Assembly: GCF_014138285.1 (NCBI RefSeq)
Contig: NZ_JACGXN010000002.1
Location: 1 to 64,000, forward strand
DNA length: 64,000 bases
Source: Phyllobacterium myrsinacearum
Lineage (GTDB): Bacteria > Pseudomonadota > Alphaproteobacteria > Rhizobiales > Rhizobiaceae
Reading direction: 5' to 3'
Shown here: positions 10,942 through 30,436 of the stretch, in pieces
Numbering within the stretch: the first letter of the stretch is position 1
Layout: every line of letters starts with the position of its first letter
The notes under the pieces: generated by a model
What the model saw: the letters and a program-made list of their open reading frames with translations, nothing else
Databases searched by the model: none
What the model was told of the DNA's origin: nothing
Program-made: the position numbers and the translations under genes

Positions 10942-11624
10942 TGGAGTTTCCTGTGATCAGCTTCATGGATTAATCCCGCAGTGATGTTAGCGGCCCCTAC
11001 CCTTTCAAATGCTACAGTGGGATGACAATGTCCGTTCACGAGGCCGTTCTATATATCTCCTAATCGAATGATTTGTCGTGCGGCGTCTGTTATCTGGACG
11101 TTGGCACACCGCTGTCACGCTTGCACAAGATTTGTATGAGTCCGGAATAAAAAAGCCCAATCGTGTCGAGTAAAACAATTGGTGAAGTGATCTAAAGATT
11201 CGCGCAAAAAAAGGCCGACAATAACGCGATGGGATTGCCGATCCTCACGTTGACACAGGAGAGCGACAACCATCCAAATCCGTGCCTGCGATATGGCAAT
11301 TTCAAGAAGAGACCCAGTTTCCAGCCTTCATCACCAGAAACAGGGCCTCATATTGTCTTGGGAGACAACGCGCGCAAAACACATCTGGTTTGTGGCTTTT
11401 TAAGGGAGTAGCCCCAAACTTCGGAACGAGATCCTCGCGCCCCGCATTGCAGGGAGTATTCAAAGCGACAAAATCCATCGATGGGCAATACATCAGTGTA
11501 TCTATACTTTTTTTCACTGATTGTTTTCCGCAGACACATCTTTCCGAGCCGTTTACAAAAACAGAAGAGAAGAATACTTTTCACATCCTCTTCTTAAATT
11601 ATCCTCTCCAACGAAAGTGTAATT
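10942..11624. other. intergenic region containing repeat copy 2
   Basis: About 680 bp without a supported gene. The centre is the dispersed repeat (11214-11405). The last 200 bp are AT-rich and contain the promoter and leader of the lipoprotein gene at 11625. I see no tRNA, riboswitch or CRISPR pattern. Confidence 0.5.
11214..11405 (-). repeat. dispersed intergenic repeat, copy 2
   Basis: Read on the minus strand this segment aligns with 1687-1885. It keeps the same hairpin TTGTCTCCCAAGACAA, the shared block around GGGTCTCTTCTTGAAATTGC and the ends AAAAAGCCACAAA and GGCAATCCCA. Substitutions and small indels are spread evenly, which suggests an old duplication or insertion from a repeat family. 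It lies alone in a large intergenic gap, with no gene on its own strand next to it. Confidence 0.7.
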
Positions 11625-13996: not shown

Positions 13997-14033
13997 AATC
14001 CCGCCCCCTGCCCAAGCACATTATATCTAAGAA

Positions 14034-14162
14034 ATGACTGAAATTGCGCCTCTTTTATTGAAGCGGATCACCGGTGCATTAGCAGTGGCAACTGTGGCGG
14101 TTGGTGCAGTCTGGTTTTTTTCAGCCATTCAAAAATACCTTCAGAGATTGGGAGAGTATTGA
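14034..14162 (+). CDS. small single-span membrane protein (42 aa)
   Basis: The ATG at 14034 opens a 42-codon frame whose residues 14-31 (GALAVATVAVGAVWFFSA) form one clear transmembrane helix, followed by a basic-polar tail. It is divergent from the Sel1 gene. The ribosome site is weak (TAAGAA). The family is unknown; it may be a genuine small membrane protein or a fragment. Confidence 0.35.
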   Translation: MTEIAPLLLKRITGALAVATVAVGAVWFFSAIQKYLQRLGEY

Positions 14163-14429
14163 GGTTCCACTTATTGAAAAACAGGAGCAGATTGAGTTGG
14201 GAAGGCGGGGGACGTTGTCGCAAAACAGCTCGCTGCGCTTGCTCTGCAGCACAAAGAATACGTTCCACCTTGTCGATCTGACGAATATCCCGATACCATC
14301 TGACTTTCGCCCCCGATCATTTTTTGCATCCTCGGGGTCACTCCTTGTCACAGCAGCAAAGGCGAGCGGAATATCGCTGAAATCGACTTTCCGGAAGCAA
14401 CCTGGTACCCATCAGACGATATCGATATC

Positions 14430-15134
14430 GTGGCGACATCTCAGATTTCAGAAGAGCAACTGACAGCAATGGCGGCTGCATTCGATCGAAGCGTTCCTTT
14501 CGATGTCAACTTCCACATCGCTGAGACCGGAACAACGTTTTTGCCTTTGGTCGACGGAAAGGCGATCCGGGAAAATGGGCGCGCGCTGTCTACAGAGCGA
14601 CTCGAGGTGACGCAGTTCTTGCAAATTAAGGGAGATACCCAATTGGACGACCACTCTCATAAATTCAAGATCCTCGAAACGGAACACTGGCTGGTGAACC
14701 ACCGAACGGATTCGGCGCTTCCCGGCTATCTGATGATCGGTTCCAAGAAATTCACAAATGACCTGTGGGAACTACCCGAGAATGCGCTTGCGGAACTCGG
14801 TCCATTGTTTGCCAGATTTCAACGGGCATTACGGCTGAGACTGGATGCCAAGCGCGTCTATATTGGCCGTTATGGACACATGCCCGGATATCCCATCCAT
14901 TTCCACGTAATACCTATTTACAACTGGGTTGAATCCCTCTTCTGGCAAGATGAACGTTATCGAGCACTTGCTGGCTTTGGTGAACCTACGGAAGAACTAG
15001 ATACCGACGGCGCAGAACTGACCTTTTTCGTCTGGCGGGAGTTTTGTGAGCGACGAGTGCCGCCACCTGTAAGCGGGCCATCCGTTTCAGAGATAATTGG
15101 AATATTGCGGGGAACTGATCGTATTACCCAATGA
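14430..15134 (+). CDS. HIT-like domain protein with N-terminal extension
   Basis: Residues about 75-175 follow the histidine-triad fold: ILETEHWLVNHR, then LPENALAELGPLF, and IHFHVIPIYNW near residue 157, where the His-x-His nucleotide-binding motif sits. HIT proteins hydrolyse or transfer nucleoside monophosphates. The first ~70 residues (IAETGTTFLPLVDGKAIREN...) are not part of a normal HIT domain, and the same frame stays open upstream to about 14300 without a good start codon. The start is therefore unsure. The upstream 14163-14429 segment may be the decayed 5' part of a longer gene. Confidence 0.6.
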   Translation: MATSQISEEQLTAMAAAFDRSVPFDVNFHIAETGTTFLPLVDGKAIRENGRALSTERLEVTQFLQIKGDTQLDDHSHKFKILETEHWLVNHRTDSALPGYLMIGSKKFTNDLWELPENALAELGPLFARFQRALRLRLDAKRVYIGRYGHMPGYPIHFHVIPIYNWVESLFWQDERYRALAGFGEPTEELDTDGAELTFFVWREFCERRVPPPVSGPSVSEIIGILRGTDRITQ

Positions 15135-15199
15135 TGTTATTCGAAATTATTTATGACCTGATCAAGGGCGCTTTGCCCAAGCGTGGAAAAGACTGGTAA
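15131..15199 (+). CDS. possible tiny ORF coupled to the HIT gene
   Basis: ATGATG overlaps the stop of the HIT gene and opens 22 codons (MMLFEIIYDLIKGALPKRGKDW), an amphipathic helix with a basic tail. The ATGA overlap would allow translational coupling. There is no other support. Confidence 0.2.
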   Translation: MMLFEIIYDLIKGALPKRGKDW

Positions 15200-15235
15200 C
15201 GCGACGACTTCAATTAAACAAGATCGGTGGTGATT

Positions 15236-15995
15236 ATGACGACAGTGACACGACATGTGGTCGAGCGGGATGACGGAGCTGCAGTAGAGTTATTCCAAGC
15301 TCACACCTCCAGCGCCTCGCCTACTGGAGTGATGCTATTTGTTCATGGCAATCAGGGTGGTCTTCTTCTCGGCGCGAAAGAGTTTGTCGACACTGGAACA
15401 CTGCTTCGGGTTTCAGCTGGCCTAAACATCACGGCAGCCGCTGTCTCACAGCCCGGTTTCGGCGCTTCTGACGGTCCTGCCGATTTCTGTGGTCCAAGCA
15501 CCCAGCAAGCGATCATAGCCGCTTTGTCCTTTTTGAAGAAGCAGCCGTCTGTCGATCCTGGTCGGATCGTTCTCTACGGCAATAGCCGCGGGCCGGTTGC
15601 TTCGGCGATGGTTGCCTCTCAGGTTGCTTATCTGCGAGCCCTCATTTTATCCAGCGGCGTTTATGATCTCAGGGCGGCCTTCAAGAACAGTTCTCCAAGG
15701 TATCCGACAAGCGATCGAAAGCGAGGCAGGCCTATCTAGTGAAGCCTTTATGGCTCGTTCTGCTCTGCATCATGCCCATGAAATCCGATCGGAAGTTTTG
15801 CTCTTACACGGCAGGCACGATAACCGCGCTCCAGTTGCCCAAGCTGAATTATTCTCCAAAGTTCTCTCGAACGCGGGAGTTTCGGTCGGTCTCAGCGTGT
15901 TTGAATGTGGGCATCAAATTCCTCGCGAACACTCGCAGGGTGTTCTACGGCCCTTCCTGAAGAGGGTGTTCATTCCCGTTGATATCCATCACTAG
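15236..15995 (+). pseudogene. alpha/beta hydrolase, frameshifted
   Basis: Two frames make one dienelactone-hydrolase or S9-like alpha/beta hydrolase. Frame one carries the oxyanion strand VMLFVHGNQGG and the nucleophile elbow GNSRG (Ser near residue 120). From about 15690 the protein continues in another frame (LQGIRQAIESEAGLSSEAF), with the acid motif LLLHGRHDNRAP and the His in FECGHQIP. All three catalytic positions are present, so only the single shift near 15685-15700 separates it from an intact gene of about 250 aa. It is either a recent pseudogene or a base-call error. The substrate is unknown. Confidence 0.75.
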
Positions 15996-16084
15996 ATTCG
16001 CGAATCGGTGCTCTGTACAAACAAGTATGTGATGAGAAAACGATGGATTGAGCGGCGAACTTGCTCTCACTTATCTGCCCTGAA

Positions 16085-17701
16085 TTATCGAAAAAACAGG
16101 CTGCTCTGTAAGCCGTCAGATTCATCGTCTAGTGGGCTTCGTCCTTCACGTAGCATCTGATGAAACTCACCGCGCGCGTAAGCTTCGTGGTCGTCAGGGA
16201 AAAGTCCCGTGTCCACGTACCCGCGGAACAACTCGAACTCCGCCAAGATCACCAAGGACTTCCGCAGCACGGATTTGCGTGAAACTGGAAGGCTTGTTGC
16301 CAATCGGTCAAAGGCAGGCAATTCCGATCTCGCATCCGGTAGTCTGCGGTTACCAACTATCTTCTTGGCGGCACGCAAATCCGACCTGGCTTGTGTCAAG
16401 ATTTTGCCGGAGAAGCCTTTGGCAGTACACAACCACATTTCGTAATCCGGATGCTCCTCAAAATCAGAAGGTAGGATTATTTTCACACCGTTGGCATGGT
16501 CTTTGATAGACCTTCCTATCGCTTCTGCAAGCATGGGAGAGACGCTGTTGGCGAGCATCTGCTTCTTGGCTTCCTGACCGACAAAGGCTGCTTTCGCTGA
16601 ACTCCCCGATTTCCCGCGTTGCACTTCAACATCCCATCGCCAGGTATCGGGGAAACCAAAGAGCTTTGCGAACTGGGTGAAGGTCAGTGTTTCCATAATC
16701 CGCATATCCAGCGGATCGGTAGGTTTCGGCTCGTACTGTCTGCTGAAGCCGTCAAGTGCGGAATTCGTAAGGGTGGGTATCGGTTCATCAACTGGATTTA
16801 GGACGCCCGACGATTTTCCGCCGGGATAACGCCAGTAAAACCGGGACCCATCGGGGTACGCTGCCAAGAGCTGCTTATCTTGCGCGCGGTTTCCAAAACC
16901 TGAAGTGTCGAGGCCCTTGCCATGTCGGAAGGCGGAGTCCGCAGTGATATAATCTCCTCCCCGTGTCCAAAGAGGTAATCCCGACGGATCAGGTGTGCTG
17001 AAGAGGGGCGTCCCAAAATTGGGACCAAGTACATCCGAGACGCAGAGTGGTGATTGTTTGCGGGCTTCCATGTGAGGCAGAAGCCAGCCGTCCGTTTCGC
17101 CGAGACAGCCCGCAACTATCAACCTTTCACGCGATTGCGCGGTCCCGTAGTCGTTCGCATTGTATATCGCCTTGGTCAGCCCGTATTCCGCGGCACGGAA
17201 TATGGCTATCGCACCTTCAAATGCAGCTGTCCTGTCAATTTCGGGTACGTTCTCCATGACGAAATACCGGGGACGGCTGCTTGCGACCAGGATTGCAAAC
17301 GCATCGGTCAAATTGGATTTCGGATCATCATCTCCATGCTGCTTGCCCGACTTTGAGAAAGGCTGACAAGGCGGCCCTCCAAAGACGATATCGGGGCGCA
17401 ATCGCGCTAAATCGGGAGCCAGTTCAACAACTGCAGAAAGGTCTGCACTGTGCACACGGCTGTTGCTTCGAAACATGTTCCCGCGCTTCGATCGCGCCTC
17501 ACCCGATATGCTTGGTTGACCCGAGGCGCGTGGCGGCGGCGGACGTTTGATCAATCCATGGAATTCGACATGTCTGATATTTGCTTTGTGAACCGCAAGC
17601 GCATGTGCATTGAAATCAATGGATCGGATGATATCGAATCCCGAGCGTTGCATTCCCAGCGCAAAGCCGCCTGCCCCGCAGAAAAGATCTATTGCACGCA
17701 T
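16085..17701 (-). CDS. C5 cytosine-specific DNA methyltransferase
   Basis: The 538-residue enzyme transfers a methyl group from AdoMet to cytosine C5. Motif I ([17 protein letters not shown]), motif IV with the catalytic Cys ([12 protein letters not shown]), motif VI (ENVPE), motif VIII ([10 protein letters not shown]) and motif X ([13 protein letters not shown]) are all present in order. The variable target-recognition region lies between about residues 240 and 350. About 140 extra residues follow motif X, a helical tail of unknown role (about residues 400-538). No restriction endonuclease or Vsr repair gene is next to it, so it is a solitary methyltransferase or part of an undefined defence or mobile module. 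The recognition site cannot be read from sequence. Confidence 0.92.
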
Positions 17702-17806
17702 ATGCCGGAGAGCCCCCCCGTTTCAGTCGGACAGACATTACAGATTTCGATTGAATATCGGTAAATAGTTCAGAAGAAGAGGTGAATGGTAGTGAAGGGA
17801 ACCAGC

Positions 17807-18031
17807 CTAATCAAAGGCATCTTTGACATCAGCATCAGAAAGCAGCCCGCCCGCAGCAAGCTTCTTTTTGGATGACGCAGCTCTCGATGTCGCGCCGGAA
17901 TCCTTCGCCTGAATGACATATGTACGGCCATTGTGCGAAATTTCTTGCGCACCAACCCGGTCGACCAACTTCAACAGGTCGTCAAACCTTTTGCTAACAT
18001 CTTCAAAGGACCAGATCTCATTGATTCTCAT
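17807..18031 (-). CDS. Phd/YefM-like antitoxin
   Basis: This 74-residue protein has the N-terminal pattern INEIWSFEDVSKRFDDLLKLVDRVGAQEISHNGRTYVI, matching Phd/YefM antitoxins, which dimerise and bind operator DNA. A disordered Ser/Ala/Lys-rich segment follows, then an acidic C-terminal tail (LLSDADVKDAFD) that could wrap the toxin. It faces away from the PIN toxin gene at 18172, with a 140-bp shared promoter region. Pairing with that gene is inferred from proximity. Confidence 0.65.
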   Translation of the reverse strand: MRINEIWSFEDVSKRFDDLLKLVDRVGAQEISHNGRTYVIQAKDSGATSRAASSKKKLAAGGLLSDADVKDAFD

Positions 18032-18171
18032 GCCTATATCATACGCCCAAACCGGTTAATTCAGAACTCAATATTGTGGTCCACTTCTTGAATTTCCAGG
18101 GCAGTAACCTTTCGCCGGTGATTTTGACCTAGAAGGCGTGACTAACGATTCGCTTCAAACAGAATGATTCG

Positions 18172-18711
18172 ATGCAGCAGCGCCGCAGATTTCTTCTGGA
18201 CACGAATGTTGTGTCGGAAACGAGCAGGATCCGCCCTCACCGCGGGTTGCTGGCCTGGCTGATTGCGCAGCCCGACCATATGTTCGCAATATCCTTTAGC
18301 ACCAGCTTCGAGGTAAAGCGCGGAGCGGAGCGTCTGGCGCGGACACATCCGGACAAGGCCTACGCACTCGAACAGTGGTTCGATGAGATTCTGGCCACCG
18401 ACATACTCTACATCGAAGAAGGAGATACAATCGCCCGTCTTCTGGCCAAGATGACAATGGTGCCTGCCCTGCGTGGCCTTTGGGTCCCCCATCTAAAAAA
18501 AGATGAACCGACTTGTGGCCAAGACCTTGCCATAGCAGCCACAGCCATCGTGCATGGGTTCACGGTTGCTACGCGCGACGTGGCAGACTTTCTGATGATT
18601 GACCATTATTTCCCACTGCCCGGTTTGGTAAATCCATTCACGCCGGCTTGGATAATTCATCCCGATGAACGCCAATCGCCTGCTCCACCACTTTACGTCG
18701 AACCCACTTGA
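18172..18711 (+). CDS. PIN-domain toxin (VapC/FitB-like)
   Basis: The 179-residue protein opens with FLLDTNVVSETSR, the first acidic PIN motif. It continues with FEVKRGAERLAR and ends with DLAIAATAIVHGFTVATRDVADF, which supplies the other acidic residues of the Mg-dependent RNase active site. VapC-type PIN toxins cut specific RNAs. It is longer than usual (130-140 aa), with an insertion rich in His/Pro/Lys around residues 105-122 and a Pro-rich tail. The ATG has little ribosome-site signal. The likely antitoxin is divergent at 17807-18031. Its stop codon overlaps the -35 element of the next operon. Confidence 0.8.
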   Translation: MQQRRRFLLDTNVVSETSRIRPHRGLLAWLIAQPDHMFAISFSTSFEVKRGAERLARTHPDKAYALEQWFDEILATDILYIEEGDTIARLLAKMTMVPALRGLWVPHLKKDEPTCGQDLAIAATAIVHGFTVATRDVADFLMIDHYFPLPGLVNPFTPAWIIHPDERQSPAPPLYVEPT

Positions 18712-18736
18712 CAGTGTCAATTTTGTTCACTATTTG
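18708..18736 (+). promoter_or_regulatory. predicted promoter of the SOS-type operon
   Basis: A perfect -35 TTGACA (18708-18713) is followed after 17 bases by TATTTG (18731-18736) as a modest -10. The -35 overlaps the stop codon of the PIN toxin gene. The LexA-type box at 18725-18739 covers the end of the spacer and the -10, where a bound repressor would block RNA polymerase. Confidence 0.5.
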
Positions 18737-18739
18737 TTC
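18725..18739 (+). promoter_or_regulatory. alphaproteobacterial LexA (SOS) box GTTC-N7-GTTC
   Basis: The sequence GTTCACTATTTGTTC is an exact match to GTTC-N7-GTTC, the direct-repeat SOS box of alphaproteobacteria. It sits about 100 bp upstream of the gene at 18838 and overlaps its predicted promoter. This predicts induction of the whole operon after DNA damage through RecA-driven LexA cleavage. One exact match by chance in 64 kb is possible, but the promoter position makes it convincing. Confidence 0.65.
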
Positions 18740-18837
18740 ACTTATCATGGAAACCAAGCGCAACCAGCTCATACGTTGATCACTCCGCTCCACCGCTCGT
18801 ATCGGTGGCCGATCAACGTTGTTGCGCCGAGAGTGCC

Positions 18838-19452
18838 ATGTATTCTCAAAAGAACATTCTTATTGGTCATGCGACCAACTCAGTAGACAGCACCGATGGG
18901 TATTTTCCACCCCGGGGGACCGTACGATGCAGTGGGATTGCAAGATTCCGCAATCAGCTCGCTCGCGATTATGGTTGCCTCCTCGACCTCGACGCCGATG
19001 TGTCCTCATGGTCGTGTTTGGATATCGAACTTGTACAATCGGAACGAACCCACCTTCCCGATTTCTCCGTCGTTCGGAACGGCATCCAATCTCTTGTCGA
19101 CATCATTCCTGACGAAACAGGCCTGCCCGCGTGGGTGTCGCACGCTGTTGTAGCTGCTGGATACAACCATCAGGTGGTGAAATTCCGAGACGTACCGCAG
19201 AATTTGCGGCTTCAGAATGCACGTGACCTTCTGCGCTACGCCAGATGGGTGTGCCCGCTCGGTGACCGCATTCGGATCGTTGCGGCACTGGACGAGCACG
19301 GCTCCCTCTCCCTGTCCGATTGCCTTTCGGCTTTCCGGGAAATCCCGCCGATAGCCGGACTCTCCTCCCTCATTCTGCACCGACACATTCAGATCGAAAT
19401 CGATGACGCGCTGATCGGACCGGACACTATGGTTCGCCACTTCGAGCGCTGA
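18838..19452 (+). CDS. TnsA-like fold protein, apparently catalytically degenerate
   Basis: From ATG 18838 the 204-residue protein follows the layout of TnsA: an N-terminal endonuclease-like domain with FRNQLARDYGCLLDLDADV and HLPDFSVVRNG plus LVDIIP, then a C-terminal winged-helix-like domain (LQNARDLLRYARW ... LSDCLSAFREIPPIAGLSSLILHRHIQIEI). In active TnsA the first motif supplies Glu and the third a Lys (E...D...QxK). Here the Asp (D75) remains, but the Glu position is Asn/Gln and the Lys position is Pro91, so DNA cleavage is doubtful. It is the first gene of an SOS-box operon and is followed after 21 bp by an FtsH-like protease. The TnsA assignment rests on pattern similarity and is moderate. 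Confidence 0.55.
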   Translation: MYSQKNILIGHATNSVDSTDGYFPPRGTVRCSGIARFRNQLARDYGCLLDLDADVSSWSCLDIELVQSERTHLPDFSVVRNGIQSLVDIIPDETGLPAWVSHAVVAAGYNHQVVKFRDVPQNLRLQNARDLLRYARWVCPLGDRIRIVAALDEHGSLSLSDCLSAFREIPPIAGLSSLILHRHIQIEIDDALIGPDTMVRHFER

Positions 19453-19473
19453 CAGCAATTCACGGAGTTAGAA

Positions 19474-21492
19474 ATGTATGATCCCAAAGCCAAGCGTGGG
19501 TTTGCCAAATCACCATTGGCGCTGTTCCTTGCGCGATGTTCATTGGTTGCCACTCTGAGAGACATTCCCCAACTGTGGAGTGGCATGCCCGTATTCATCG
19601 GACTTATTGTTCCAAACCCCAACCAGGTCGAGACATATATCGAGGCAACTCCCGGTTTTGTTGAGAAGCATCTCTCCGGTAGCACCATGACCGATATTTA
19701 TCGTGGTACCGAACTCGTGATTCTTGAGACGGAAAAGTCGGTGTCCAAGTGTTCGGGCAGCGCGTTCAGCACCGTTCTCAAACTGTACGATCGTGTCGCA
19801 ATGGTTGTGTCTGAAGAAGCCGAGTTCCCCGATCAGTTTCGTCTTGCGTCCGACGTGATCAGAACCGTCACTCCCATTACTGCTGAGTATATCAGGGCTG
19901 GGGTGCGCGTATGCTTTGGGGCTGAAATGACTCTTGAGCAAGCCACCGCATTCTTGGAAGTGCCGTTGGAAACCATTGATCTCGTCCTGAAACAAGGACG
20001 CAGCATCCAAGACTCGATGGAGCGCATCGGTAGAGCGATGAAGGCAAGTGAGCCACAACCTGCCCCGTCCTCGGATAATCCGCTGCTGGACTTGAGTAGT
20101 CTTCGTGGTCTTGGTGAAGCGACGGTTTGGGGCCATGAGCTCGCCCAGGATATTGCCGATTGGAAGAACAGGCATATTAGTTGGAAAGATGTGGATCGCG
20201 GAGTGCTCATCAGCGGACCGCCGGGCACAGGCAAGACAACATTTGCGGCTGCCCTCGCACGGACCTGTGGCGTACCGCTGATCGCTGCATCATTGGCGAT
20301 TTGGCAATCAAAAGGTCATCTCGGCGATACACTTGCGGCAATGCGGAAGTCATTTACCGAAGCGTCGATGAAAAAGCCAAGCATTCTCTTCATTGATGAG
20401 ATCGATGCAGTAGGTGATCGCAACAGTTTCTCCGGGCATAACGCTCACTACTGCAGGGAAGTTGTCGCAGCCCTCCTGGAATGCATGGACGGAACCGGGA
20501 AACGCGACGGGGTTGTCATTGTTGGGGCAACCAACACACCAGAACTCATTGATCCGGCGCTAACCCGTTCAGGCAGATTGGATCGGCACATTGCCATTCC
20601 GCTTCCGGATCAGGATGCCCGGGTAGGTATCCTGCGTTGGCATCTACAGGGATCATTGGCGGGCGAAGACCTGCAACCCGTCGTCATGAGAACAGAGGGC
20701 GGGAGTGGCGCTGACCTTGAGCAGATTGTCAGGCATGCCAGACGCTTGGCCCGCCGATCAAGGCGTGAAATCACCGTGGAAGACCTAACGGCGATGTTGC
20801 CGGAACGTGTGCCACTTTCACCGGAAGCACGCTGGCGTTATGCGGTGCATGAAAGCGGTCACGTGATGGTCGCACTTGCTATTGGCTTCGTCGGGATCGA
20901 GAGCGTGTCGATCACAGACAGCGCCGATGCATCGGCGGTTTCAACGTCGGCTGGGGAGACGCACTACACCAGCACATTGGAATGGGCCTTCACCCGCGAT
21001 CATTACCTCGCTCAAATTTGTACATGTTTTGGTGGGATGGCGGCAGAAGAAGTCATTCTCGGCATCAGGTCGACGTCCGCTGGCGGTGTTCCCCAATCCG
21101 ATCTTTACCAAGCCACCATCACAGCGGTTCAAATCGAAGCCAGTTACGGTTTGGGCGGCTCACTTGGCTACCTAGCGTCCCACAAAGCAGACGAGGCCCT
21201 GACTGCTTACCGATCCGACTTCAGTATCCGCAAACGGACCGATGAGCTGCTTACCCAGCAGTACGCGATCACTAAGGGCGTCGTCGAACGCCATCGCGAC
21301 GAAATCCTAGCTTTGGCCTCTGCCCTGATCGAACGCGGACGTCTGGACGGCGCGCAGATCGAGGAAATTCTCAAAAGCGCACGAAGACCATCGCATCTAG
21401 CCGAACAGCCTTCGTCACCGGCATCAACAGACAACACTTATCAACCTCAAGAATTCGAAGCGGTTTCCGGCTTCGTTGGAGATAAATCATGA
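19474..21492 (+). CDS. soluble FtsH-like AAA+ zinc metalloprotease (M41-type)
   Basis: The 672-residue protein combines an AAA+ ATPase with an M41 peptidase, as in FtsH. It has Walker A GPPGTGKTT (about 247-255), Walker B ILFIDEIDA (about 304-312), the second region of homology DPALTRSGRLDRHI, the zinc site HESGH (about 459-463) and the third-ligand motif SDLYQAT (about 545). FtsH normally has two N-terminal transmembrane helices; here the first ~200 residues are a soluble, unrecognised domain, so it should act in the cytoplasm. It would unfold and degrade a chosen substrate using ATP. It sits between the TnsA-like gene and a DUF6634-like gene (ATGA overlap) behind a LexA box. A GGAG ribosome site precedes the ATG. 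Confidence 0.9.
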   Translation: MYDPKAKRGFAKSPLALFLARCSLVATLRDIPQLWSGMPVFIGLIVPNPNQVETYIEATPGFVEKHLSGSTMTDIYRGTELVILETEKSVSKCSGSAFSTVLKLYDRVAMVVSEEAEFPDQFRLASDVIRTVTPITAEYIRAGVRVCFGAEMTLEQATAFLEVPLETIDLVLKQGRSIQDSMERIGRAMKASEPQPAPSSDNPLLDLSSLRGLGEATVWGHELAQDIADWKNRHISWKDVDRGVLISGPPGTGKTTFAAALARTCGVPLIAASLAIWQSKGHLGDTLAAMRKSFTEASMKKPSILFIDEIDAVGDRNSFSGHNAHYCREVVAALLECMDGTGKRDGVVIVGATNTPELIDPALTRSGRLDRHIAIPLPDQDARVGILRWHLQGSLAGEDLQPVVMRTEGGSGADLEQIVRHARRLARRSRREITVEDLTAMLPERVPLSPEARWRYAVHESGHVMVALAIGFVGIESVSITDSADASAVSTSAGETHYTSTLEWAFTRDHYLAQICTCFGGMAAEEVILGIRSTSAGGVPQSDLYQATITAVQIEASYGLGGSLGYLASHKADEALTAYRSDFSIRKRTDELLTQQYAITKGVVERHRDEILALASALIERGRLDGAQIEEILKSARRPSHLAEQPSSPASTDNTYQPQEFEAVSGFVGDKS

Positions 21493-21827
21493 TTATCGTA
21501 CGTGAATCCGGCACGACGTCGGACGGCCTTTCAATGGAGATTCAAGTTCTAAAAGAACTCCTGCAAGATCTTGAAAATATTAGAAGAGGTCGACTTCCAG
21601 ATGCACGTGCACTCGCCAATGCGCCTCTGATCGACAACTGGTCGTTGCGCTATCGGAACGTGCCGTGTTTGGCGGGGGCAATTTCGTCTCATCCCAGGCT
21701 TGGTCATGCCGAAAATGGGATCACCAGCGATCTCTGGATCCTTGCTCCGCACCACGGTTTTGCGCGAACAATGTCCAGGTTTTACAACTTGGGCAGTCCT
21801 GCAAAGCCCAAAAATGGCAGCCATTGA
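21489..21827 (+). CDS. DUF6634-like protein
   Basis: The 112-residue protein overlaps the protease stop (ATGA) and has a GGAGATAAATC ribosome site, so it is translationally coupled. The pattern ELLQDLENIRRGRLPDAR, ALANAPLIDNWSLRYRNVPCL, TSDLWILAPHHGFARTMSRFY and a final NLG fits small proteins I recall as DUF6634, common in Hyphomicrobiales accessory regions. No enzyme motif is visible. Co-occurrence with the AAA+ protease suggests an adaptor or substrate-recognition role, which is inference only. Confidence 0.6.
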   Translation: MIIVRESGTTSDGLSMEIQVLKELLQDLENIRRGRLPDARALANAPLIDNWSLRYRNVPCLAGAISSHPRLGHAENGITSDLWILAPHHGFARTMSRFYNLGSPAKPKNGSH

Positions 21828-22890
21828 AATTCCAAATGGCGGTCATGCGGCGAACGAGATTCTAAGCGGGATGTTTGAGATGTTTCGCTTAGAAGGATTC
21901 CCGAAAAATAATGCTTCGGCAATGATAGTTCAGTATATTGGTGTTCTGCGGTGGGGGATCAACTTGGGTAACATAATCGAGCAAGCATATCGACCCGAAC
22001 CTACGCCTTCGGGCAGTAGGTATGGTAAGGTACTGGCAGCATCAGCATTGGTAGCGCTCGCCGCTATTGTGGCAGCTTGGTTATTTGTACCAGGGCCGTT
22101 GGAGCGGGGCGGAAAGGCGCTGATTGCCAAAGATTATCCAACCGCTCTTAAACTGCTGACGCCACTTGCGCAAAGAAACTATGCTCCTGCCCAATTCGGT
22201 CTCGGATATCTCTATGAAAATGGATTTGGTGTCGAAAAGAATCTGCCTCTCGCATTTGATTTATATCAGAAGGCGGCCGAACAGAACCATTCGGCCGCGC
22301 AAATGTTGTTGGGGAACATGTACTTTTCGGGAATCGGTGCTCCCCAAAATGATTCTCTGGCTGTCGACTGGTACCGAAAAGCGGGTATTTCCGGTAGAGC
22401 CGATGCGCAGCATAATCTCGGATACATGTACTACCTTGGTCGTGGCGTGGAGAAGAACGCTGCGCTGGCTGCATTCTGGTATGAAAAAGCTGCAAAGCAA
22501 GGGAAACCGGAATCTCAATGCAATCTGGGAAAACTATACCAGGATGGCGAAGGCGTACCCCAAGACGATGTAATTGCGCTCAAATGGTTTCAGATGGCCG
22601 CCGATCAAGGCACTGCGTACGCACAGAACATGTTGGGATATATCCATCTTTTAGGACGCGGAATTCCCAAAGACCCGCTTTTGGCGAAAAAATGGTTTGA
22701 ACTGGCGGCTGCACAAGACTACGCAGAATCTCAACGCCTTCTCGGAACGTTCTATTTCAATGGCATTGGAGTTGAAAAGAATTATAGCCGTGCTGCTGAA
22801 TGGTATCAGAAGGCGGCAAAAAATGGGGATGGGGAAGCACAGCGTCTTTTGGATGTAATGCAAGCAGCGGGTCTGCTATCAAAAACTTAG
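21814..22890 (+). CDS. Sel1-repeat membrane protein
   Basis: From ATG 21814 the 358-residue protein has an N-terminal cytoplasmic part of about 70 residues, one transmembrane helix (VLAASALVALAAIVAAWLFV, about residues 70-89), then seven or eight Sel1-like repeats (such as AQFGLGYLYENGFGVEKN and AQNMLGYIHLLGRGIPKD). The longer open frame to 21700 overlaps the DUF6634-like gene out of frame and is unlikely to be used. ATG 21871 is another possible start. It overlaps the preceding gene by 14 bp and is probably the last gene of the SOS-type operon. Sel1 scaffolds organise protein complexes; the partner is unknown. Confidence 0.8.
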   Translation: MAAIEIPNGGHAANEILSGMFEMFRLEGFPKNNASAMIVQYIGVLRWGINLGNIIEQAYRPEPTPSGSRYGKVLAASALVALAAIVAAWLFVPGPLERGGKALIAKDYPTALKLLTPLAQRNYAPAQFGLGYLYENGFGVEKNLPLAFDLYQKAAEQNHSAAQMLLGNMYFSGIGAPQNDSLAVDWYRKAGISGRADAQHNLGYMYYLGRGVEKNAALAAFWYEKAAKQGKPESQCNLGKLYQDGEGVPQDDVIALKWFQMAADQGTAYAQNMLGYIHLLGRGIPKDPLLAKKWFELAAAQDYAESQRLLGTFYFNGIGVEKNYSRAAEWYQKAAKNGDGEAQRLLDVMQAAGLLSKT

Positions 22891-22967
22891 ACACCGTCAT
22901 GCTGCACATTGCGATGCAATCAAAAGATAATCGCACTTAAGCAAAAGCTGCGGCTTGCGCTCCATTT

Positions 22968-23165
22968 TCAATGAACGTTGACGTACTTCATGATTGTCGC
23001 AAGGGCTTTGTCGTAGTTACCGGAAAGGGCCTCATTGATGACCTTGTCGATAGCGCGCTTCTCCACACCACCCTGCCGAAGCGATTTTGAAACCCTCGCC
23101 ATCAGGGACATCGCATCGCTATCTGTCTCTGTCAGCTTCACGTTCACATGGTCGTAGATTGCCAT
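22968..23165 (-). CDS. small hypothetical protein (65 aa)
   Basis: From the ATG at 23165, with a GGAGAAACTA ribosome site, the product is helical and charged (MAIYDHVNVKLTETDSDAM ... GNYDKALATIMKYVNV). An internal SLRQGGVEKRAIDKVINEAL segment is repeat-like. I do not recognise it. It is convergent with the Sel1 gene and divergent from the transposition operon. Confidence 0.5.
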   Translation of the reverse strand: MAIYDHVNVKLTETDSDAMSLMARVSKSLRQGGVEKRAIDKVINEALSGNYDKALATIMKYVNVH

Positions 23166-23623
23166 TAGTTTCTCCGTTGAAATCCTGCGCCTACAAGAAT
23201 GGTGACCAGGATATTCAATGCAATCGAGCGCCGTTTGGATTTCATTCTTCCGGAAAAAATATTTTCGCATAGCCCGAAATCTATTCCTTGATGCAGCACC
23301 AGTGAACGAAACGCGAAACCCACCGGCATGTTGTGCCTGCAGGATTAACCATAGGACTAAATCCGGAAGTGCTCCGGAAAATATTCCTTATTTGGGATCT
23401 TGCCGGAGCAAATCTTCCGTGACATATATCGCGACATCGGCGGTAAATGCCGAAAACAAAGGACCGAATGACCATGACGAAATTCATACGGATATCTGCG
23501 CAGGACAAACGCGCAACCGCCTAAAGGCATCGGTATGATTTCACCGGTGCCAGCAGGTACCGGTTTCGGTTTGTCCCTCTCCGCAGTCAGCAATAACGCT
23601 GTTTTCAATGGAAGGGATCTACA
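23166..23623. other. 458-bp non-coding region upstream of the Tn7-like operon
   Basis: No supported gene. It contains repeated TCCGGAA-type motifs: TCCGGAAAAAATATT at 23249-23263, TCCGGAAGTG at 23362-23371 and TCCGGAAAATATT at 23373-23385. In Tn7-like elements the right end with its TnsB sites lies upstream of tnsA, so this is where such sites should be. I could not match these motifs to the repeats at 30181-30219, nor find a TGT/ACA terminus with a 5-bp duplication. Confidence 0.4.
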
Positions 23624-23890
23624 ATGAACACCCAACGTATCTATGCCCGAACTCGCAGGCTCCGCCGCCTAGACGACACGAATTCGGTTTCCGGCGAAAG
23701 CGCAACTGGTCTCAACAACCGCCGTTCGCGACGTCGCACCAATGGGGTCCGTCGCAAGCTCGGTGCCGACCACTTGAACACGCCCCGTGTCACGACTTTC
23801 CGTCTGCCGTCGCAGTGTGATGCCTTCACGCTACTGTCGGGTATTCTCAACAGTATCGCCGACCAAGTGCATTCGGACGGTAATACGTGA
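23624..23890 (+). CDS. small Arg-rich protein (88 aa) upstream of tnsA
   Basis: The 88-residue product has a strongly basic N-terminal half (IYARTRRLRRLDD and NRRSRRRTNGVRRKL) and a short non-basic C-terminal helix (AFTLLSGILNSIADQV). A GAAGGGA ribosome site precedes the ATG. It is the first ORF of the transposition operon region. The composition would fit nucleic-acid binding, but no domain is recognised. Function unknown. Confidence 0.5.
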   Translation: MNTQRIYARTRRLRRLDDTNSVSGESATGLNNRRSRRRTNGVRRKLGADHLNTPRVTTFRLPSQCDAFTLLSGILNSIADQVHSDGNT

Positions 23891-23902
23891 GTGCACTTTC
23901 TT

Positions 23903-23928
23903 GTCCTGCTGCCAACTGGCAGCGGGAC
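23903..23928 (+). promoter_or_regulatory. strong RNA hairpin after the 88-aa ORF
   Basis: GTCCTGCTGCC and GGCAGCGGGAC form an 11-bp stem with one G-T pair and an AACT loop, 13 bp after the stop of the 88-aa ORF. No U-run follows, so it is not a classic terminator. A processing, attenuation or Rho-related role in the tns leader is possible. Confidence 0.5.
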
Positions 23929-24001
23929 ACCAGCCCAACTTTCTATTTGTATTCCATCTTTGGACAACCCTGCCCTAGCCAACACCGAAAGGAGGCACAA
24001 A

Positions 24002-24067
24002 ATGACTAATGCTCGATACAGCCCTGCCTCCCGCCGCACTCTTCTCCAACACCTCATAGCCCTCTGA
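24002..24067 (+). CDS. 21-aa leader-like ORF upstream of tnsA
   Basis: A near-perfect ribosome site AAAGGAGG sits 6 bases before the ATG of a 21-codon ORF rich in Arg/Ser/Leu. Stem-loops follow it (24070-24087) before tnsA. The strong ribosome site for such a short frame suggests a leader peptide that controls downstream translation or transcription, though a remnant is possible. Confidence 0.4.
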   Translation: MTNARYSPASRRTLLQHLIAL

Positions 24068-24069
24068 TC

Positions 24070-24087
24070 TGCAGGCTACTGCCTGCA
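24070..24087 (+). promoter_or_regulatory. hairpin between the leader ORF and tnsA
   Basis: TGCAGGC-TACT-GCCTGCA is a perfect 7-bp stem with a 4-base loop, 2 bases after the stop of the 21-aa ORF. A second small stem, CCGGATTCCGG, lies at about 24110-24120. tnsA follows with its own GAGGAG ribosome site. Confidence 0.45.
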
Positions 24088-24165
24088 TGATTTACGGCAC
24101 GGGAAACCACCCGGATTCCGGTTTTCAACCCCGCGCCAAGCGTTGGGGTACAGAGGAGTTGTGTC

Positions 24166-24987
24166 ATGTCGAAAGAAGAAGATTTCAATCAATCCGAAGA
24201 AGCAGTCGAAACTCGGGATAGCGAAAGCGAGCTCAAACCCAAAAGCTTCCCTCGCCGTAAATCGGGCAGAGCCCGTGCACGGGAAGCGATTGCACCGGGT
24301 GCACCGCGCGAGGGGCAGCTTTGGTTACCTCCATCCGCTTCGCTTTCAACCCGCGCAATCAAATTCAGGGGCTTGAGTTCCTTCCGGGGCGCAATGGTCA
24401 ATCCAAAAGACCACAGGGAGATGCATTACGAGAGCACGTTGGAGCGTGACACCGCATACATCCTTCTCGCCAATCCCGACATTACCGACATTCGCGACCA
24501 ACCGCCAAAGGTTCATTTTTTTGACCGCAGCAGCAAGCCACACTCGCACACGTTCGATTTCGACTTCCGGCTGAAAACCGGAGAACGGATGGCAATTGCG
24601 GTGAAGCTAGAAAGTCAAGTCGAGCGTAGCGGGATCCTGGAGACGCTTGCCCTCATCCGGGAGCAGCGACCAAAAGGCTGCGCTGACTATGTCGAGCTCC
24701 GCACGGAGCGCCTTATCACCCGTATCCGTGCCCGCAACGCCCGGATGATCGTTAGGGCCATCAACAATCGCGTCGAGCGGAATGTCGATGCAGTGCGTGA
24801 TGCATTTTCTCGCTGCGCAGGTGCCATCCGGATTTCGGATTTGATCGAAGTCTCGGTGCCTGCCGGCCCCGGCTTCATGGCAATCCTCTGCCTGATTGCA
24901 GACGGGATCATTGAACAGGTCGGCAACGACAACCTCTCATACGACAGCTTCGTTTGCCAACGCGCGAACAACAAAAAAGGAGAATGA
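24166..24987 (+). CDS. tnsA: TnsA-like transposon endonuclease
   Basis: TnsA cuts the 5' ends of a Tn7-like transposon, allowing cut-and-paste movement together with TnsB. In this 273-residue protein a basic tail (residues 25-45) precedes the nuclease domain. That domain has YESTLERDTAYILLANPDI (Glu89/Glu93), HTFDFDFRL (Asp131/Asp133) and MAIAVKLES (Lys147), matching the E-D-(x)K arrangement, although the residue two before Lys is Ala rather than Gln/Glu. The C-terminal part has the winged-helix-like SDLIEVSVPAGPGFMAIL region. The ATG has a GAGGAG site. It is followed by tnsB with a 2-bp gap. Confidence 0.82.
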   Translation: MSKEEDFNQSEEAVETRDSESELKPKSFPRRKSGRARAREAIAPGAPREGQLWLPPSASLSTRAIKFRGLSSFRGAMVNPKDHREMHYESTLERDTAYILLANPDITDIRDQPPKVHFFDRSSKPHSHTFDFDFRLKTGERMAIAVKLESQVERSGILETLALIREQRPKGCADYVELRTERLITRIRARNARMIVRAINNRVERNVDAVRDAFSRCAGAIRISDLIEVSVPAGPGFMAILCLIADGIIEQVGNDNLSYDSFVCQRANNKKGE

Positions 24988-24989
24988 AC

Positions 24990-27176
24990 ATGACCAACGA
25001 AATCGAACAAACCAACGTTGAGCCCAACCAACTTTCACCTGTCGTGCGCTGGCGCTTCAGTGCCCGCGACCGCATCGTGATTGATGAGGTAAATTGGTTG
25101 TGGAATTCCACAAGCGAAGACGCTCAGGTGCTGCAGATGGAAAACGATGAGGACCGCTTCCAATCGTTCTCGCACGCTGAACTCTATGCGTTGTGGACTG
25201 TAGGTCGCATGACCCACATCGGAGAATACCACTCGCGTAAAAGAGCCCGTGCACGCCACGGCAAACAGGAACTGAAGGTCACCGACCTGCCCAAAAAGCA
25301 ACAGGAAATCATTCTGTGGCGCATGGAATACTGCGATCAATTCAAGCGAATGGAAAAGCTTGGCAAGTGCACCCGTTCGGATGCCTCCATGAAGGCTGCC
25401 ATCGCCGAAATCAGCATGCATGTGAACGCGATGTACCAGAACAACAAGGCACGAGGCGGGGATGTGATCAAGGTCCGCAAGTCGCCTAGTCCGACTCAAC
25501 TGCGCGCTCACCTTCGCAAATACGAAAGCTGGAACGAAAATCCGATGCTCCTGCAGAAGCGAACCAACCGAAGCGGCAATCGCAAACCAAGGCTTGATGA
25601 AGAGGTCTATCGCCTTCTGCAAACGGCTGCCGAATCCTACGCAGATGAACGCCGCCCGACCAAGGCCAGCGCCTATCTCGGCATGCAGGTGGAGTTCAGA
25701 AAGGTCAATGCTGTTCGTGTGGCCACGGGACTCCCTGAATTGAAGGTGCCCAGCATCCAAACCCTCAACAGGGAGATCGGCAAGATGCATGCTCAACGTC
25801 TCTGTGCTGTCCGTGAAGGTGAAGGAGAAGCGAAGAAGGCTTTCTACAAGGTCAACGGCGGAATGGGGGCGTGTATGCCATTGGAGCACGTCGAGATGGA
25901 TGAGTGGAACGCGTCGTTGCGCACGATCCTGATCAAGGCAGGCGCATGGCGGGCGATGACACCTAAGCAGCGCAAAGAGCACAAGAATACTCGAATTTGG
26001 TTTTCGGTCGCCATCGACAAGGCAACCCGCTGTGTCCCGGCAATTCATGCGGTTGTGGGCGCACCCTCCACGAGATCAGGCATTGAAACACTTCGGATGG
26101 CTGTGACAGATAAAAACAAGCTCGCGATCGCTGCAGGATGTAAAACGCCGTGGGAAATGGGCGGGCAAATGGACACGGTTTGCGCTGACCTGGGATCCGC
26201 ATGGATCAATCACGAAGTGCGGGCTGCGGGTATCGATCTCAACGTCGAATTCATGTACCCGCCCGGCGGCCGGCCCCAAATGCGGGGAACCATCGAACGT
26301 CTGTTTCGCTCGTTTCACACGCAGTTTGTTTCGTGCTTCCACGGCAGGACGTTCGAGAATGTTGTTGCCAAGGGAGATTACGATCCCGACGAGAATGTCA
26401 CGATCGACGCTACGGAACTGAACCGCATGCTGATCAGGGCAGTGGTGGACGATTATCACAACCGACCTCACAAAGGACTCATGGGCGAAACCCCACGCAA
26501 TGCTTGGTTGAGGCTGACCAAAAAATTCGACGCGCCAGTATACGTCGATGAGGATACCTGTCGCACGGTGTTCGGAACGACTTTGGAGCGTGAACTACGC
26601 AAGGAAGGCGTCCAGGTTTTCGGTGTATTTTATCAGCACGACGATCTGGCACGTTTCTTCCGGAAATCGGGGAAGCGGAAGGTTTTCGTCCGGGTCGATC
26701 AAGGTAATATTGGCCGGGTATCAGTGCAGACTGACCAAGGCTGGCTCACGGTCGGAAGCGTAAATCCGGGCATGGACGGTGTCGTGCTGCGTGAATGGGT
26801 TCTCGCCAACCAAAAGATCCGCAGGGAGTTCGCCCGGCAAGCAGCCGTATCACACGATGTTCGGCTTCAGGCTGTCGCCGACATCCGAGCCGAGGCGGAC
26901 AGGGCCGGCGAGATGGCGGGCTTGAAGCTGGCGAACTACAACTCCGACCGGATCATTCGGCTTGCTGAATGGGGTATCCGCGGTCAACGCAACGAAGCCA
27001 TTGCCGACGAAACTGCCGACTTTGCTGCTCCTACCAGCGAACCCAAACTCATCAATAGCGACGATAATAATCTCACGGAAAGCGTTGCGGATGTTGTCGA
27101 TGATTATCGAAACCCGGCCGGGCAGTCTGTTCAGGATGATGCCCCGGAAGACGACGACACATTTTTGGAAGGATGA
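24990..27176 (+). CDS. tnsB: TnsB-like Mu/retroviral-type DDE transposase
   Basis: TnsB binds the transposon ends and joins the 3' ends to target DNA. The 729-residue protein has an N-terminal DNA-binding part (about 1-280), then an RNase-H-like integrase core with Asp304 (VEMDEWN), Asp400 (CADLGSAW) and Glu436 (MRGTIERLFR), followed by the Mu-type C-terminal beta domain (TVFGTTLERELRKEGVQVFG). HNRPHKGLMGETP is the usual motif after the catalytic core. The C-terminal ~80 residues are acidic and probably contact TnsC. ATG 24990 has an AGGAG site 7 bases upstream. Its end overlaps or abuts tnsC. Confidence 0.92.
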   Translation: MTNEIEQTNVEPNQLSPVVRWRFSARDRIVIDEVNWLWNSTSEDAQVLQMENDEDRFQSFSHAELYALWTVGRMTHIGEYHSRKRARARHGKQELKVTDLPKKQQEIILWRMEYCDQFKRMEKLGKCTRSDASMKAAIAEISMHVNAMYQNNKARGGDVIKVRKSPSPTQLRAHLRKYESWNENPMLLQKRTNRSGNRKPRLDEEVYRLLQTAAESYADERRPTKASAYLGMQVEFRKVNAVRVATGLPELKVPSIQTLNREIGKMHAQRLCAVREGEGEAKKAFYKVNGGMGACMPLEHVEMDEWNASLRTILIKAGAWRAMTPKQRKEHKNTRIWFSVAIDKATRCVPAIHAVVGAPSTRSGIETLRMAVTDKNKLAIAAGCKTPWEMGGQMDTVCADLGSAWINHEVRAAGIDLNVEFMYPPGGRPQMRGTIERLFRSFHTQFVSCFHGRTFENVVAKGDYDPDENVTIDATELNRMLIRAVVDDYHNRPHKGLMGETPRNAWLRLTKKFDAPVYVDEDTCRTVFGTTLERELRKEGVQVFGVFYQHDDLARFFRKSGKRKVFVRVDQGNIGRVSVQTDQGWLTVGSVNPGMDGVVLREWVLANQKIRREFARQAAVSHDVRLQAVADIRAEADRAGEMAGLKLANYNSDRIIRLAEWGIRGQRNEAIADETADFAAPTSEPKLINSDDNNLTESVADVVDDYRNPAGQSVQDDAPEDDDTFLEG

Positions 27177-27181
27177 AGAAA

Positions 27182-28270
27182 ATGAATATTCAGAACGTAG
27201 AATCGTCTCCGGAACCCGCTGAAGAAGCCAAGCCCTTGAGCCGCGCCGCCCGCGCCGAGATCATGGGACGTGTCCTCGGCATGTATTTCGGAGGCAAGCT
27301 CGACAAGGAACTTAGCTCTGAGATTGAACGCTTGATTGATGCGTGTGAGATGAGCAACACTGCAAAAGTCGGCGTGGGCCGATTGGCTGAAGGGCGAATC
27401 CTTGCCGTCATCGGCAGACCAGGTGCTGGCAAGTCGCGGTCGCTAGAGCGACAGTTCTACACCCGGGAGGAATTCGCTGGATTCCGTAGTGAAGATTCCA
27501 ATTGCCGACTCATCTCAGTCAAGGCCCCTTCCCCTTGTACTCTCAAGCAACTGGGTAACTCAATTCTTGTTGCCACCGGGTACGAAATCGAACGGGACCT
27601 CAAAGAGAACATGGTGTGGATGCTCGTCCATAAGCGCTTGCAGAAATGTGGCATCCAATACCTTCACATTGACGAAGCGCAACACGCAACGGAAACGGCC
27701 AACAAGCTTGAGTTGAAAAAAGTGCGGGATACCGTAAAGGCGCTACTTCAGAACCCCGATTGGCCCGTTTGGTTGATCATCTCCGGGAAACCATCGCTGG
27801 CATCATTCATTGAACACGACATCCAGTTGAAGAGACGTGCCCGCACCGTAAGGATCGAAGACATTACGTTTGCGAAACATGCGCAGCGAGTACGGGGAAT
27901 GATGAAAGCACTTGTAACGAACGCAACTGAGCTCACGATCGACCCTGCTGACGAGGACAGGATTTTGCCAAGGTTGATTCACGCTGCCCAAGGCCAGTTT
28001 GGGATCGCCGTGGAATATGTGCAGGACTCCATCAATGAAGCCCTGATCGCCGGCGACATCATGATGGGCACAAAACATTTCGCTTCAAGCTATTCCAGCC
28101 GCTCAGGTTGTTCCTCGGATGCGAATGTCTTCACCGCTGCCAACTGGCACGAAATCAACGTGGCGCGTGCCCTTGAAGACGCGCAAAATGAAATTGAAGT
28201 AGAGGAGAATTATGAAGGTGCAGAATCCGCGGCTGCAAAAAAGATCAGGATTCAAAGGAGTCAATCATGA
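27182..28270 (+). CDS. tnsC: TnsC/TniB-like AAA+ ATPase
   Basis: TnsC is the ATP-dependent regulator that links target selection by TniQ/TnsD to the TnsAB transposase. Walker A GRPGAGKSR lies near residues 78-86 and Walker B LHIDEAQHA near 160-168. A sensor-like WLIISGKPSL follows at about 197. The ATG at 27182 is preceded by GGAAGG at 9 bases; ATG 27173 overlaps the tnsB stop but has almost no spacing. It overlaps tniQ by 4 bp (ATGA). Length (about 362 aa) is intermediate between TniB and Tn7 TnsC. Confidence 0.9.
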   Translation: MNIQNVESSPEPAEEAKPLSRAARAEIMGRVLGMYFGGKLDKELSSEIERLIDACEMSNTAKVGVGRLAEGRILAVIGRPGAGKSRSLERQFYTREEFAGFRSEDSNCRLISVKAPSPCTLKQLGNSILVATGYEIERDLKENMVWMLVHKRLQKCGIQYLHIDEAQHATETANKLELKKVRDTVKALLQNPDWPVWLIISGKPSLASFIEHDIQLKRRARTVRIEDITFAKHAQRVRGMMKALVTNATELTIDPADEDRILPRLIHAAQGQFGIAVEYVQDSINEALIAGDIMMGTKHFASSYSSRSGCSSDANVFTAANWHEINVARALEDAQNEIEVEENYEGAESAAAKKIRIQRSQS

Positions 28271-30111: not shown

Positions 30112-30133
30112 ACATTAAAATTCTCAAATAGTT

Positions 30134-30157
30134 AGCCCGGATTTTCCGGGCTTTTTT
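30134..30157 (+). terminator. Rho-independent terminator of the tns operon
   Basis: AGCCCGGA-TTT-TCCGGGCT is a perfect 8-bp stem followed by TTTTTG. It begins 22 bp after the tniQ stop codon. Confidence 0.85.
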
Positions 30158-30180
30158 GTTGTGCACGCTGGATTTGAGGC

Positions 30181-30376: not shown

Positions 30377-30436
30377 ATGATGTTCCCAGGTCCTCCAACT
30401 AAGGCTGACGCCAGTTTGGCGAAAGAGGCAGACACC

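Follow-up and report, generated by a model that had tools for sequence, protein, structure and literature searches.

Several described systems each resemble part of the locus analyzed here. IetAS, a defense system described in Agrobacterium, combines an AAA+ ATPase with an S8 protease, the erm and cat leaders are translational attenuators, and tisB is an SOS-induced toxin with control at the RNA level. AAA+ protease effector modules and leader attenuators therefore already exist; their combination in the present locus was not found described. The locus is a gene module of Phyllobacterium myrsinacearum, located in a 64,000-nucleotide stretch of DNA (contig NZ_JACGXN010000002.1, positions 1 to 64,000, forward strand) that is referred to below as the window, and its core is a gene for a TnsA-like protein followed by a gene for a soluble AAA+/M41 metalloprotease. 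At the level of sequence, the LexA box, the promoter, a leader mini-open reading frame (mini-ORF) and a predicted RNA pairing are conserved, the two genes are paired, the catalytic residues of the TnsA-like protein are lost, and the module is linked to Tn7-like transposition genes.

The Module Is Preceded by a Conserved LexA Box

The SOS-type promoter of the module spans positions 18708–18739 of the forward strand, with the −35 element TTGACA at 18708–18713 and the LexA box GTTCACTATTTGTTC at 18725–18739 over the presumed −10 region, and the exact GTTC-N7-GTTC box overlapping a TTGACA-type promoter that was reported in the initial annotation is thus present. GTTC-N7-GTTC is given as the alphaproteobacterial LexA site in the available part of PMC3323433, and GTTC and GAAC consensus motifs are mentioned in the available part of PMC6473078. 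The criterion for the alphaproteobacterial LexA regulon is a site that overlaps the promoter, as is seen in the window, and LexA would be expected to bind there. The sequence GTTCACTATTTGTTC is the sole GTTC-N7-GTTC in the 64 kb, where 2.16 are expected by chance, so the window box is no evidence by itself. The composite TTGAC-N12-GTTCnnTATnnGTTC (18708–18739) has one occurrence in the window, with 0.02 expected at up to two mismatches. Throughout the 5.97-Mb genome, TTGAC with a spacer of 8–12 and the box occurs once. Because a reversed control pattern also occurs once, the composite is not significant in a single genome, and the evidence is its conservation.

Conservation was followed in 297 genomes of the host's family, taken to be the Rhizobiaceae. 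In the first set of loci, the window included, a coding-strand box lies within 250 bp of the TnsA-like gene in 25 of 29 cases, and 17 further loci bring the count of same-strand boxes to 38 of 46. The background, 70 boxes in 883 kb, corresponds to 0.05 expected per 630 bp. The box is also present in nine of 11 plasmid loci kept aside from the definition of the motif; these were fetched from 17 matching records and, being related to the first set, do not form an independent sample. A chance origin of the box was rejected because it is conserved across relatives, and the proposal of an SOS-type promoter before the operon gains support from conservation across divergent members of the family. Among 32 M41 loci that have no TnsA-like gene, the box directly precedes the M41 gene in four and is absent from 28, and in a tree of 58 M41 sequences the boxed members are scattered over several deep branches. 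The host lexA promoter (L095) also carries GTTC-N7-GTTC, as GTTCCAGCATTGTTC. Other matches of GTTCNNTATNNGTTC in the host genome are found before an SRAP gene (1.1e-21), before an HhH-GPD gene (2.2e-9) and before a gene of no assigned name.

The Leader Likely Folds as a Translational Attenuator

In 40 of 42 leaders, a mini-ORF starts with an ATG located 3–8 bases past the box, and in 33 of the 42 it comprises 8–13 codons. In the window, it encodes METKRNQLIR* (18747–18779, forward strand), carries the rare codon ATA in frame, and is a feature that the initial annotation did not include. The 42 leaders include those of four boxed M41 loci without a TnsA-like gene (L057, L058, L071 and L072), which stand outside the 38 of 46; the set of 33, which retains L057 and L058, is the 42 minus nine with longer or divergent leaders. 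The commonest ends of the 33 mini-ORFs are CTC ATA CGC TGA (10), CGA ATA GGT TGA (seven) and CGA ATA CGT TGA (four). An in-frame ATA, a codon with a frequency of 0.26% in the TnsA-like and M41 genes, is observed in 31 of the 33 and in all nine boxed plasmid loci that were kept aside.

The tail of the mini-ORF is predicted to pair with a stretch 25–70 bases past its stop; judged by eye, the TnsA-like ribosome site falls within this stretch in most leaders. The predicted window structure (18758–18847, forward strand) is composed of the pairs 18758–18764/18821–18827 and 18773–18781/18811–18819 and a second hairpin at 18829–18847, and the main stem ends one base before GAGAG (18829–18833). The leaders are more stable than their dinucleotide shuffles, with a mean z of −2.29 (n = 42), 34 of 42 below −1, and −3.52 for the window. 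Cognate duplexes of tail and site have a mean energy of −18.2 kcal/mol versus −13.8 kcal/mol for shuffled pairings, and none of 5000 permutations was as good; this result persisted when the leaders were thinned to 25 at 60% identity, and four control segment pairs gave z values from −1.03 to 0.91, which are not significant. Because the tail and the site pair with covariation, the mini-ORF and stem likely constitute a translational attenuator. A transcription terminator in the leader was considered and rejected, as no T-run is visible by eye past the hairpins. Rfam returned no match at the gathering score for window positions 14000–32000. In addition, one M41 gene (L093) is preceded by a mini-ORF, MNATLRIAR*, with apparent pairing and no LexA box, so such a leader can exist without SOS control.

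The Module Pairs a Probable Dead Nuclease with a Soluble Protease

The gene for the TnsA-like protein occupies 18838–19452 of the forward strand, with its likely start at the ATG at 18838 as read by eye (the mechanical ORF begins at 18805). As a single sequence, the protein gives nothing over the cut-offs used with Pfam, NCBIfam and PADLOC, and its one Pfam match (E 0.27) is far below cut-off. The family profile aligns by hhalign with true TnsA proteins over 164 columns and both domains (P 4.2e-9, probability 96), a profile-to-profile comparison that supports the relationship to TnsA proposed in the initial annotation. No match to the profile was found among solved structures, the one hit having E 0.84, and none of seven pattern matches in viral contigs is a relative.

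The active nuclease that this relationship might imply is not borne out. At the catalytic positions, which we take to be the Glu, Asp and Lys of Tn7 TnsA, an alignment of 21 TnsA-like proteins has Glu in none (Arg in 19), Asp in all 21 and Lys in none, so two of the three positions are lost, whereas the Tn7-type TnsA encoded in the window keeps Glu, Asp and Lys. The invariant columns of the TnsA-like family lie mostly in the C-terminal half. Together with the lost catalytic positions, this distribution suggests a nuclease that is probably dead and has been retained for binding, that is, an adaptor.

The protease gene follows at 19474–21492 on the same strand. Its product has AAA (1.2e-32) and Peptidase_M41 (1.5e-18) domains and an N-terminal domain of ~200 residues in place of membrane anchors. 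The highest 19-residue hydropathy, 1.73 at residue 462, adjoins the HExGH motif, and a membrane anchor is therefore not assigned; among 25 M41 proteins, only that of L076 exceeds a hydropathy of 2 (2.26 at residue 197). The Walker A Gly-Lys-Thr, HExGH and the Asp that provides the third metal ligand are kept in 25 of 25 sequences, and the description of a soluble M41 protease with no membrane anchor accordingly holds. A structure model built with 12 sequences (predicted local distance difference test score (pLDDT) 75.5) matches FtsH best. In PADLOC, the best match is IetA (6.9e-28), which covers the general AAA domain only (residues 242–438), and beyond this domain no match to IetAS or another anti-phage system was found. 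A peptide-pattern search of genome contigs with the M41 protein gave one weak match.

Two further observations concern the partners of M41 genes. In another M41 group (L039, L060, L061, L065, L066, L069, L070 and L091), a protein of ~320 residues, judged by eye to resemble a PD-(D/E)xK fold, is encoded directly upstream, which suggests that M41 proteases have been paired repeatedly with nuclease-fold partners. A calcineurin-like metallophosphoesterase gene follows the M41 gene in L046, L047, L053, L054, L074, L090, L130, L131, L215 and L219, and its start overlaps the M41 stop in several of these loci.

The Two Core Genes Form a Recurrent Pair in the Family

Among the 297 genomes, M41 relatives are present in 97 (E ≤ 1e-50), the TnsA-like gene in 41 (E ≤ 1e-6) and the tnsB lineage of the window in 35 (E ≤ 1e-40); co-occurrence figures derived from these counts ignore kinship among genomes. 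Sixty M41 loci (L035–L094) were drawn from the top of the M41 match list, and near-identical loci (L053/L054, L052/L114, L078/L080, L046/L047 and L071/L072) are present among the loci counted in this analysis. A TnsA-like gene lies upstream of the M41 gene in 28 of the 60, DUF6634 is near in 18, and a Sel1 gene is near in none. The four gene calls of the initial annotation (TnsA-like, soluble M41, DUF6634 and Sel1) are upheld, and the pairing of the TnsA-like and M41 genes is real. The four genes do not form a fixed unit, DUF6634 being an optional partner and Sel1 unlinked in relatives. In the window, these two genes are located at 21489–21827 (DUF6634, forward strand, 27.8 bits versus a cut-off of 27) and 21814–22890 (forward strand), the latter encoding a Sel1-repeat protein with one hydrophobic helix and having its likely start, by eye, at the ATG at 21814 (the mechanical ORF begins at 21700).

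A search of 385 genomes of the class with the TnsA-like profile gave, apart from the window, just two weak matches, and the gene therefore seems to be mostly restricted to the host's family. TnsA-like genes with no working M41 gene are also seen: no M41 was matched at L102, L114 retains just an N-terminal fragment, which shares 78% identity with the M41 protein of L052, and a reversed remnant is present at L105.

The neighborhood on the upstream side includes a PIN-domain (VapC-like) gene at 18172–18711 (forward strand), the stop codon of which overlaps the −35 element; PIN genes adjoin the module in 15 of 61 loci. Together with a divergent small gene that resembles the Phd/YefM type only at E 0.15, it forms a possible toxin-antitoxin pair (17807–18711). 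A cytosine-5 DNA methyltransferase gene lies at 16085–17701, and its family is found in 11 of 61 M41 loci, window included. Farther away, positions 1689–1880 and 11215–11401 form an inverted repeat of ~190 bases (79% identical).

The Module Lies Beside Tn7-like Transposition Genes

Downstream of the module and in the same direction, a Tn7-like tnsA-tnsB-tnsC-tniQ operon, which is absent from the initial annotation, spans 24166–30111. It encodes TnsA (24166–24987; 24.8 bits, slightly under the cut-off of 26.5, with the Glu/Asp/Lys catalytic positions present), a TnsB-type transposase (24954–27176; Mu-transpos_C), a TnsC-type ATPase (27173–28270; TniB, 2.1e-13) and TniQ (28267–30111; 2.7e-21), all on the forward strand. 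An RNase H gene (30565–31083; Pfam, 1.7e-26) stands directly after the TniQ gene. The closest relative found, L105, has TnsA, TnsB, TnsC and TniQ proteins of 52, 46, 49 and 48% identity, respectively, in the order PIN gene, LexA box, TnsA-like gene, DUF6634, tnsA-tnsB-tnsC-tniQ, and its M41 remnant lies in the opposite direction between DUF6634 and tnsA. Neither an inverted-repeat search nor comparison with L105 revealed terminal repeats at the element ends. When 20 genomes of the same genus were compared with positions 30100–40000, the matches fell mostly in a catalase region, and an empty site was therefore not readable. A nearby catalase region shares 84% identity with Phyllobacterium sp. 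628.

The linkage recurs in the family. Of 35 tnsB genomes, 29 carry the TnsA-like gene, compared with 41 of 297 genomes overall, and 33 carry M41, compared with 97 of 297 (hypergeometric 7e-25 and 4e-16, kinship ignored). Module and tns operon form 29 pairs that share a contig and are at most 50 kb apart, a set that excludes two more distant pairs (G042:C1 and G256), and in 28 of the 29 the module is situated on the side of tnsA. A separate observation was made at L116 (G258), a stretch with no TnsA-like or M41 match, where a LexA-type box, GTTCCCTATTTGTTC, stands behind TTGACA upstream of tnsA-tnsB-tnsC-tniQ (oriented position 1708, forward-strand position 11725). Direct SOS control of the transposition genes is possible at that locus.

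These findings bear on an alternative that we regard as possible, if on balance doubtful, namely that the module controls the transposition of its own element. On DNA damage, the dead TnsA would compete with TnsA, or would bring the protease to the TnsA-TnsB-TnsC complex for disassembly or release, with a parallel in the action of ClpX on Mu. The enrichment in tnsB genomes, the position on the tnsA side, the homology of the TnsA-like protein to TnsA and the box of the L116 tns operon all speak for such a role. It is less readily reconciled with the 12 of 41 TnsA-like genomes that have no tnsB at the cut-off used, with a spacing that varies from 1.4 to 39 kb, with a direction shared in only 14 of 29 pairs, and with the plasmid loci, in all 11 of which no tns genes were present within the 6 or 14 kb fetched.

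The plasmid loci have neighbors of another kind. Six of the 11 are annotated. The pair adjoins the TRIP13, HORMA and cyclase genes of CBASS on a plasmid of R. leguminosarum BT01, IetA, IetS and KwaB on a plasmid of R. acidisoli, and HamA and HamB (Hachiman) on a plasmid of R. leguminosarum Ta1k. A megablast of positions 18000–31200 against plasmids gave no match. Around 23 TnsA-like loci, 158 mechanical ORFs of at least 190 residues were collected, and 114 from 18 loci were scanned; within the best 25 of 73 families, the neighbors include at least eight cytosine methyltransferases and at least one or two each of HamA, DpnII-type, E2, FRG, KAP and STAND proteins. The plasmid neighbors favor a role in defense, and control of transposition is a close rival that ranks behind it.

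Proposed Function and Alternatives

Our favored reading, held tentatively and at somewhat less than even confidence, is a doubly locked adaptor-protease module with a main role in defense against phages or rival mobile elements. The steps that we infer beyond the sequence itself, from LexA binding and the direction of the RNA switch to the adaptor role, the substrate and defense, would be as follows. LexA on the promoter would form the first lock, restricting transcription of the operon to the SOS response. The mRNA would start almost directly with the mini-ORF, the tail of which, paired at the stretch of the TnsA-like ribosome site, would form the second. The stem would open as a ribosome travels across, or pauses on, the rare ATA/CGA codons, allowing translation of the TnsA-like protein and the protease. 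The adaptor, with its cutting residues lost and its C-terminal domain kept, may bind DNA or a DNA-bound complex and deliver the bound target to the cytosolic FtsH-type protease. In the Rhizobiaceae, the module would reside close to the transposition genes of Tn7-like elements and within defense islands of plasmids. As the same pair with the same locks is found in many related bacteria, it may be an emergency system that has escaped description.

A number of observations weigh against this reading. A transposon role would account no less well for the tight link to tnsB seen in 29 of 35 genomes. Three of the six annotated plasmid loci have, by eye, no recognised defense system; one of these three has an N-6 methylase, and another has Ku genes and no M41. 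The cargo of Tn7-like elements is rich in defense genes according to the available part of PMC8649781, which makes defense neighbors weak evidence. An exact box is lacking in eight of the 46 TnsA-like loci (L037, L047, L051, L087, L108, L118, L119 and L120), including L047, which lies at a contig end with 83 bases upstream, and L108, which has a one-mismatch box. In the host genome, GTTCNNTATNNGTTC has five matches versus two for the reversed control, and one of the five is, by eye, inside a uvrC-like gene. With respect to the leader, nine of 42 are without a short mini-ORF and ATA is missing from two of the 33 short ones, and in the window the GAGAG ribosome site and the ATG at 18838 are located in the separate second hairpin just past the main stem. 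The duplex test on the plasmid loci was suggestive only (225 of 5000). On a plain MAFFT alignment of the leaders, RNAalifold gave no consensus structure, a result that we put down to misalignment; the energies of cognate and shuffled duplexes were compared instead to test for covariation. Finally, structure modeling of the TnsA-like protein from its single sequence was unsuccessful (pLDDT 33), and the fold assignment thus rests on the profile comparison.

A bolder form of the defense reading, which we consider unlikely though worth stating, is an AND gate of Rhizobiaceae immunity or element warfare. It would require both DNA damage, sensed through LexA, and a translation pause at the leader AUA, for example during depletion of tRNA by a phage or toxin; the dead transposition-nuclease adaptor would then hand DNA-bound enemy machinery to the soluble FtsH-type protease.

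More doubtful still is the view that the mini-ORF and stem are no sensor but just a device for translational coupling or a by-product of a near-leaderless start, in which case the module would be an SOS-expressed passenger. Covariation shows pairing and not regulation, and ATA codons could be retained for pairing, as this view would have it; however, the distance from ATA to the stop varies by whole codons, and the M41 locus L093 keeps such a leader without a LexA box. The least probable alternative is one in which an SOS-induced protease clears proteins crosslinked to or stuck on DNA with the TnsA-like protein as its DNA-binding adaptor, for although it accords with the SOS-type promoter, with a box of the same type before the SRAP gene of the host genome (a family linked to crosslinks) and with the Ku genes that adjoin one TnsA-like gene (L220, in a stretch without M41), it sits poorly with a patchy distribution (41 of 297 genomes) in mobile contexts and with the loss or shortening of M41 at L102 and L114.

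If borne out, the adaptor-protease module would be, to our knowledge and within the literature searched, the first in which a nuclease of transposition has been recruited as the non-cutting partner of a protease, and one of few examples in which SOS control is combined with a translational attenuator based on a rare codon. Its leader also serves as a marker for finding further copies and as a source of testable predictions.

Comparison with Known Systems

The statement in the initial annotation that no described system has this make-up agrees with the libraries and literature searched, in which the TnsA-like/M41 pair was not found. In the portions of openly licensed papers covered on TnsA with M41/FtsH, DUF6634, Tn7-like cargo and SOS, leader attenuation and FtsH-like defense, the pair is not described, a provisional result, and the same is true of the IetAS literature among the matches listed, in the parts available. 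The main text of PMC8649781 contains no FtsH, M41, LexA or SOS.

Similar to FtsH, the window protease combines AAA+ and M41 domains with HExGH and the Asp ligand, and FtsH structures are its best full-domain matches. It differs from FtsH in having no membrane anchor, another N-terminal domain, a patchy distribution and an SOS-type promoter, and it scores 204.7 bits against an FtsH equivalog cut-off of 600. The TnsA-like protein matches TnsA of Tn7-like transposons over both domains at the profile level; unlike TnsA, it has neither the catalytic Glu nor the catalytic Lys, and its gene partner is a protease. IetAS shares with the module an AAA+ unfoldase coupled to proteolysis, and an IetA/IetS pair stands beside one module copy, whereas the protease of the module is of the M41 type, is fused to the AAA+ domain, and has a TnsA-like partner. 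As in the erm and cat leaders, the end of a leader mini-ORF base-pairs close to the ribosome site of the gene that follows; in contrast to these attenuators, the module leader has an SOS promoter, a near-leaderless start, a rare ATA and no known stall peptide. With SOS toxins of the tisB type, the module would share LexA together with a lock at the RNA level on a product presumed to be harmful, which in this case is an adaptor-protease operon.

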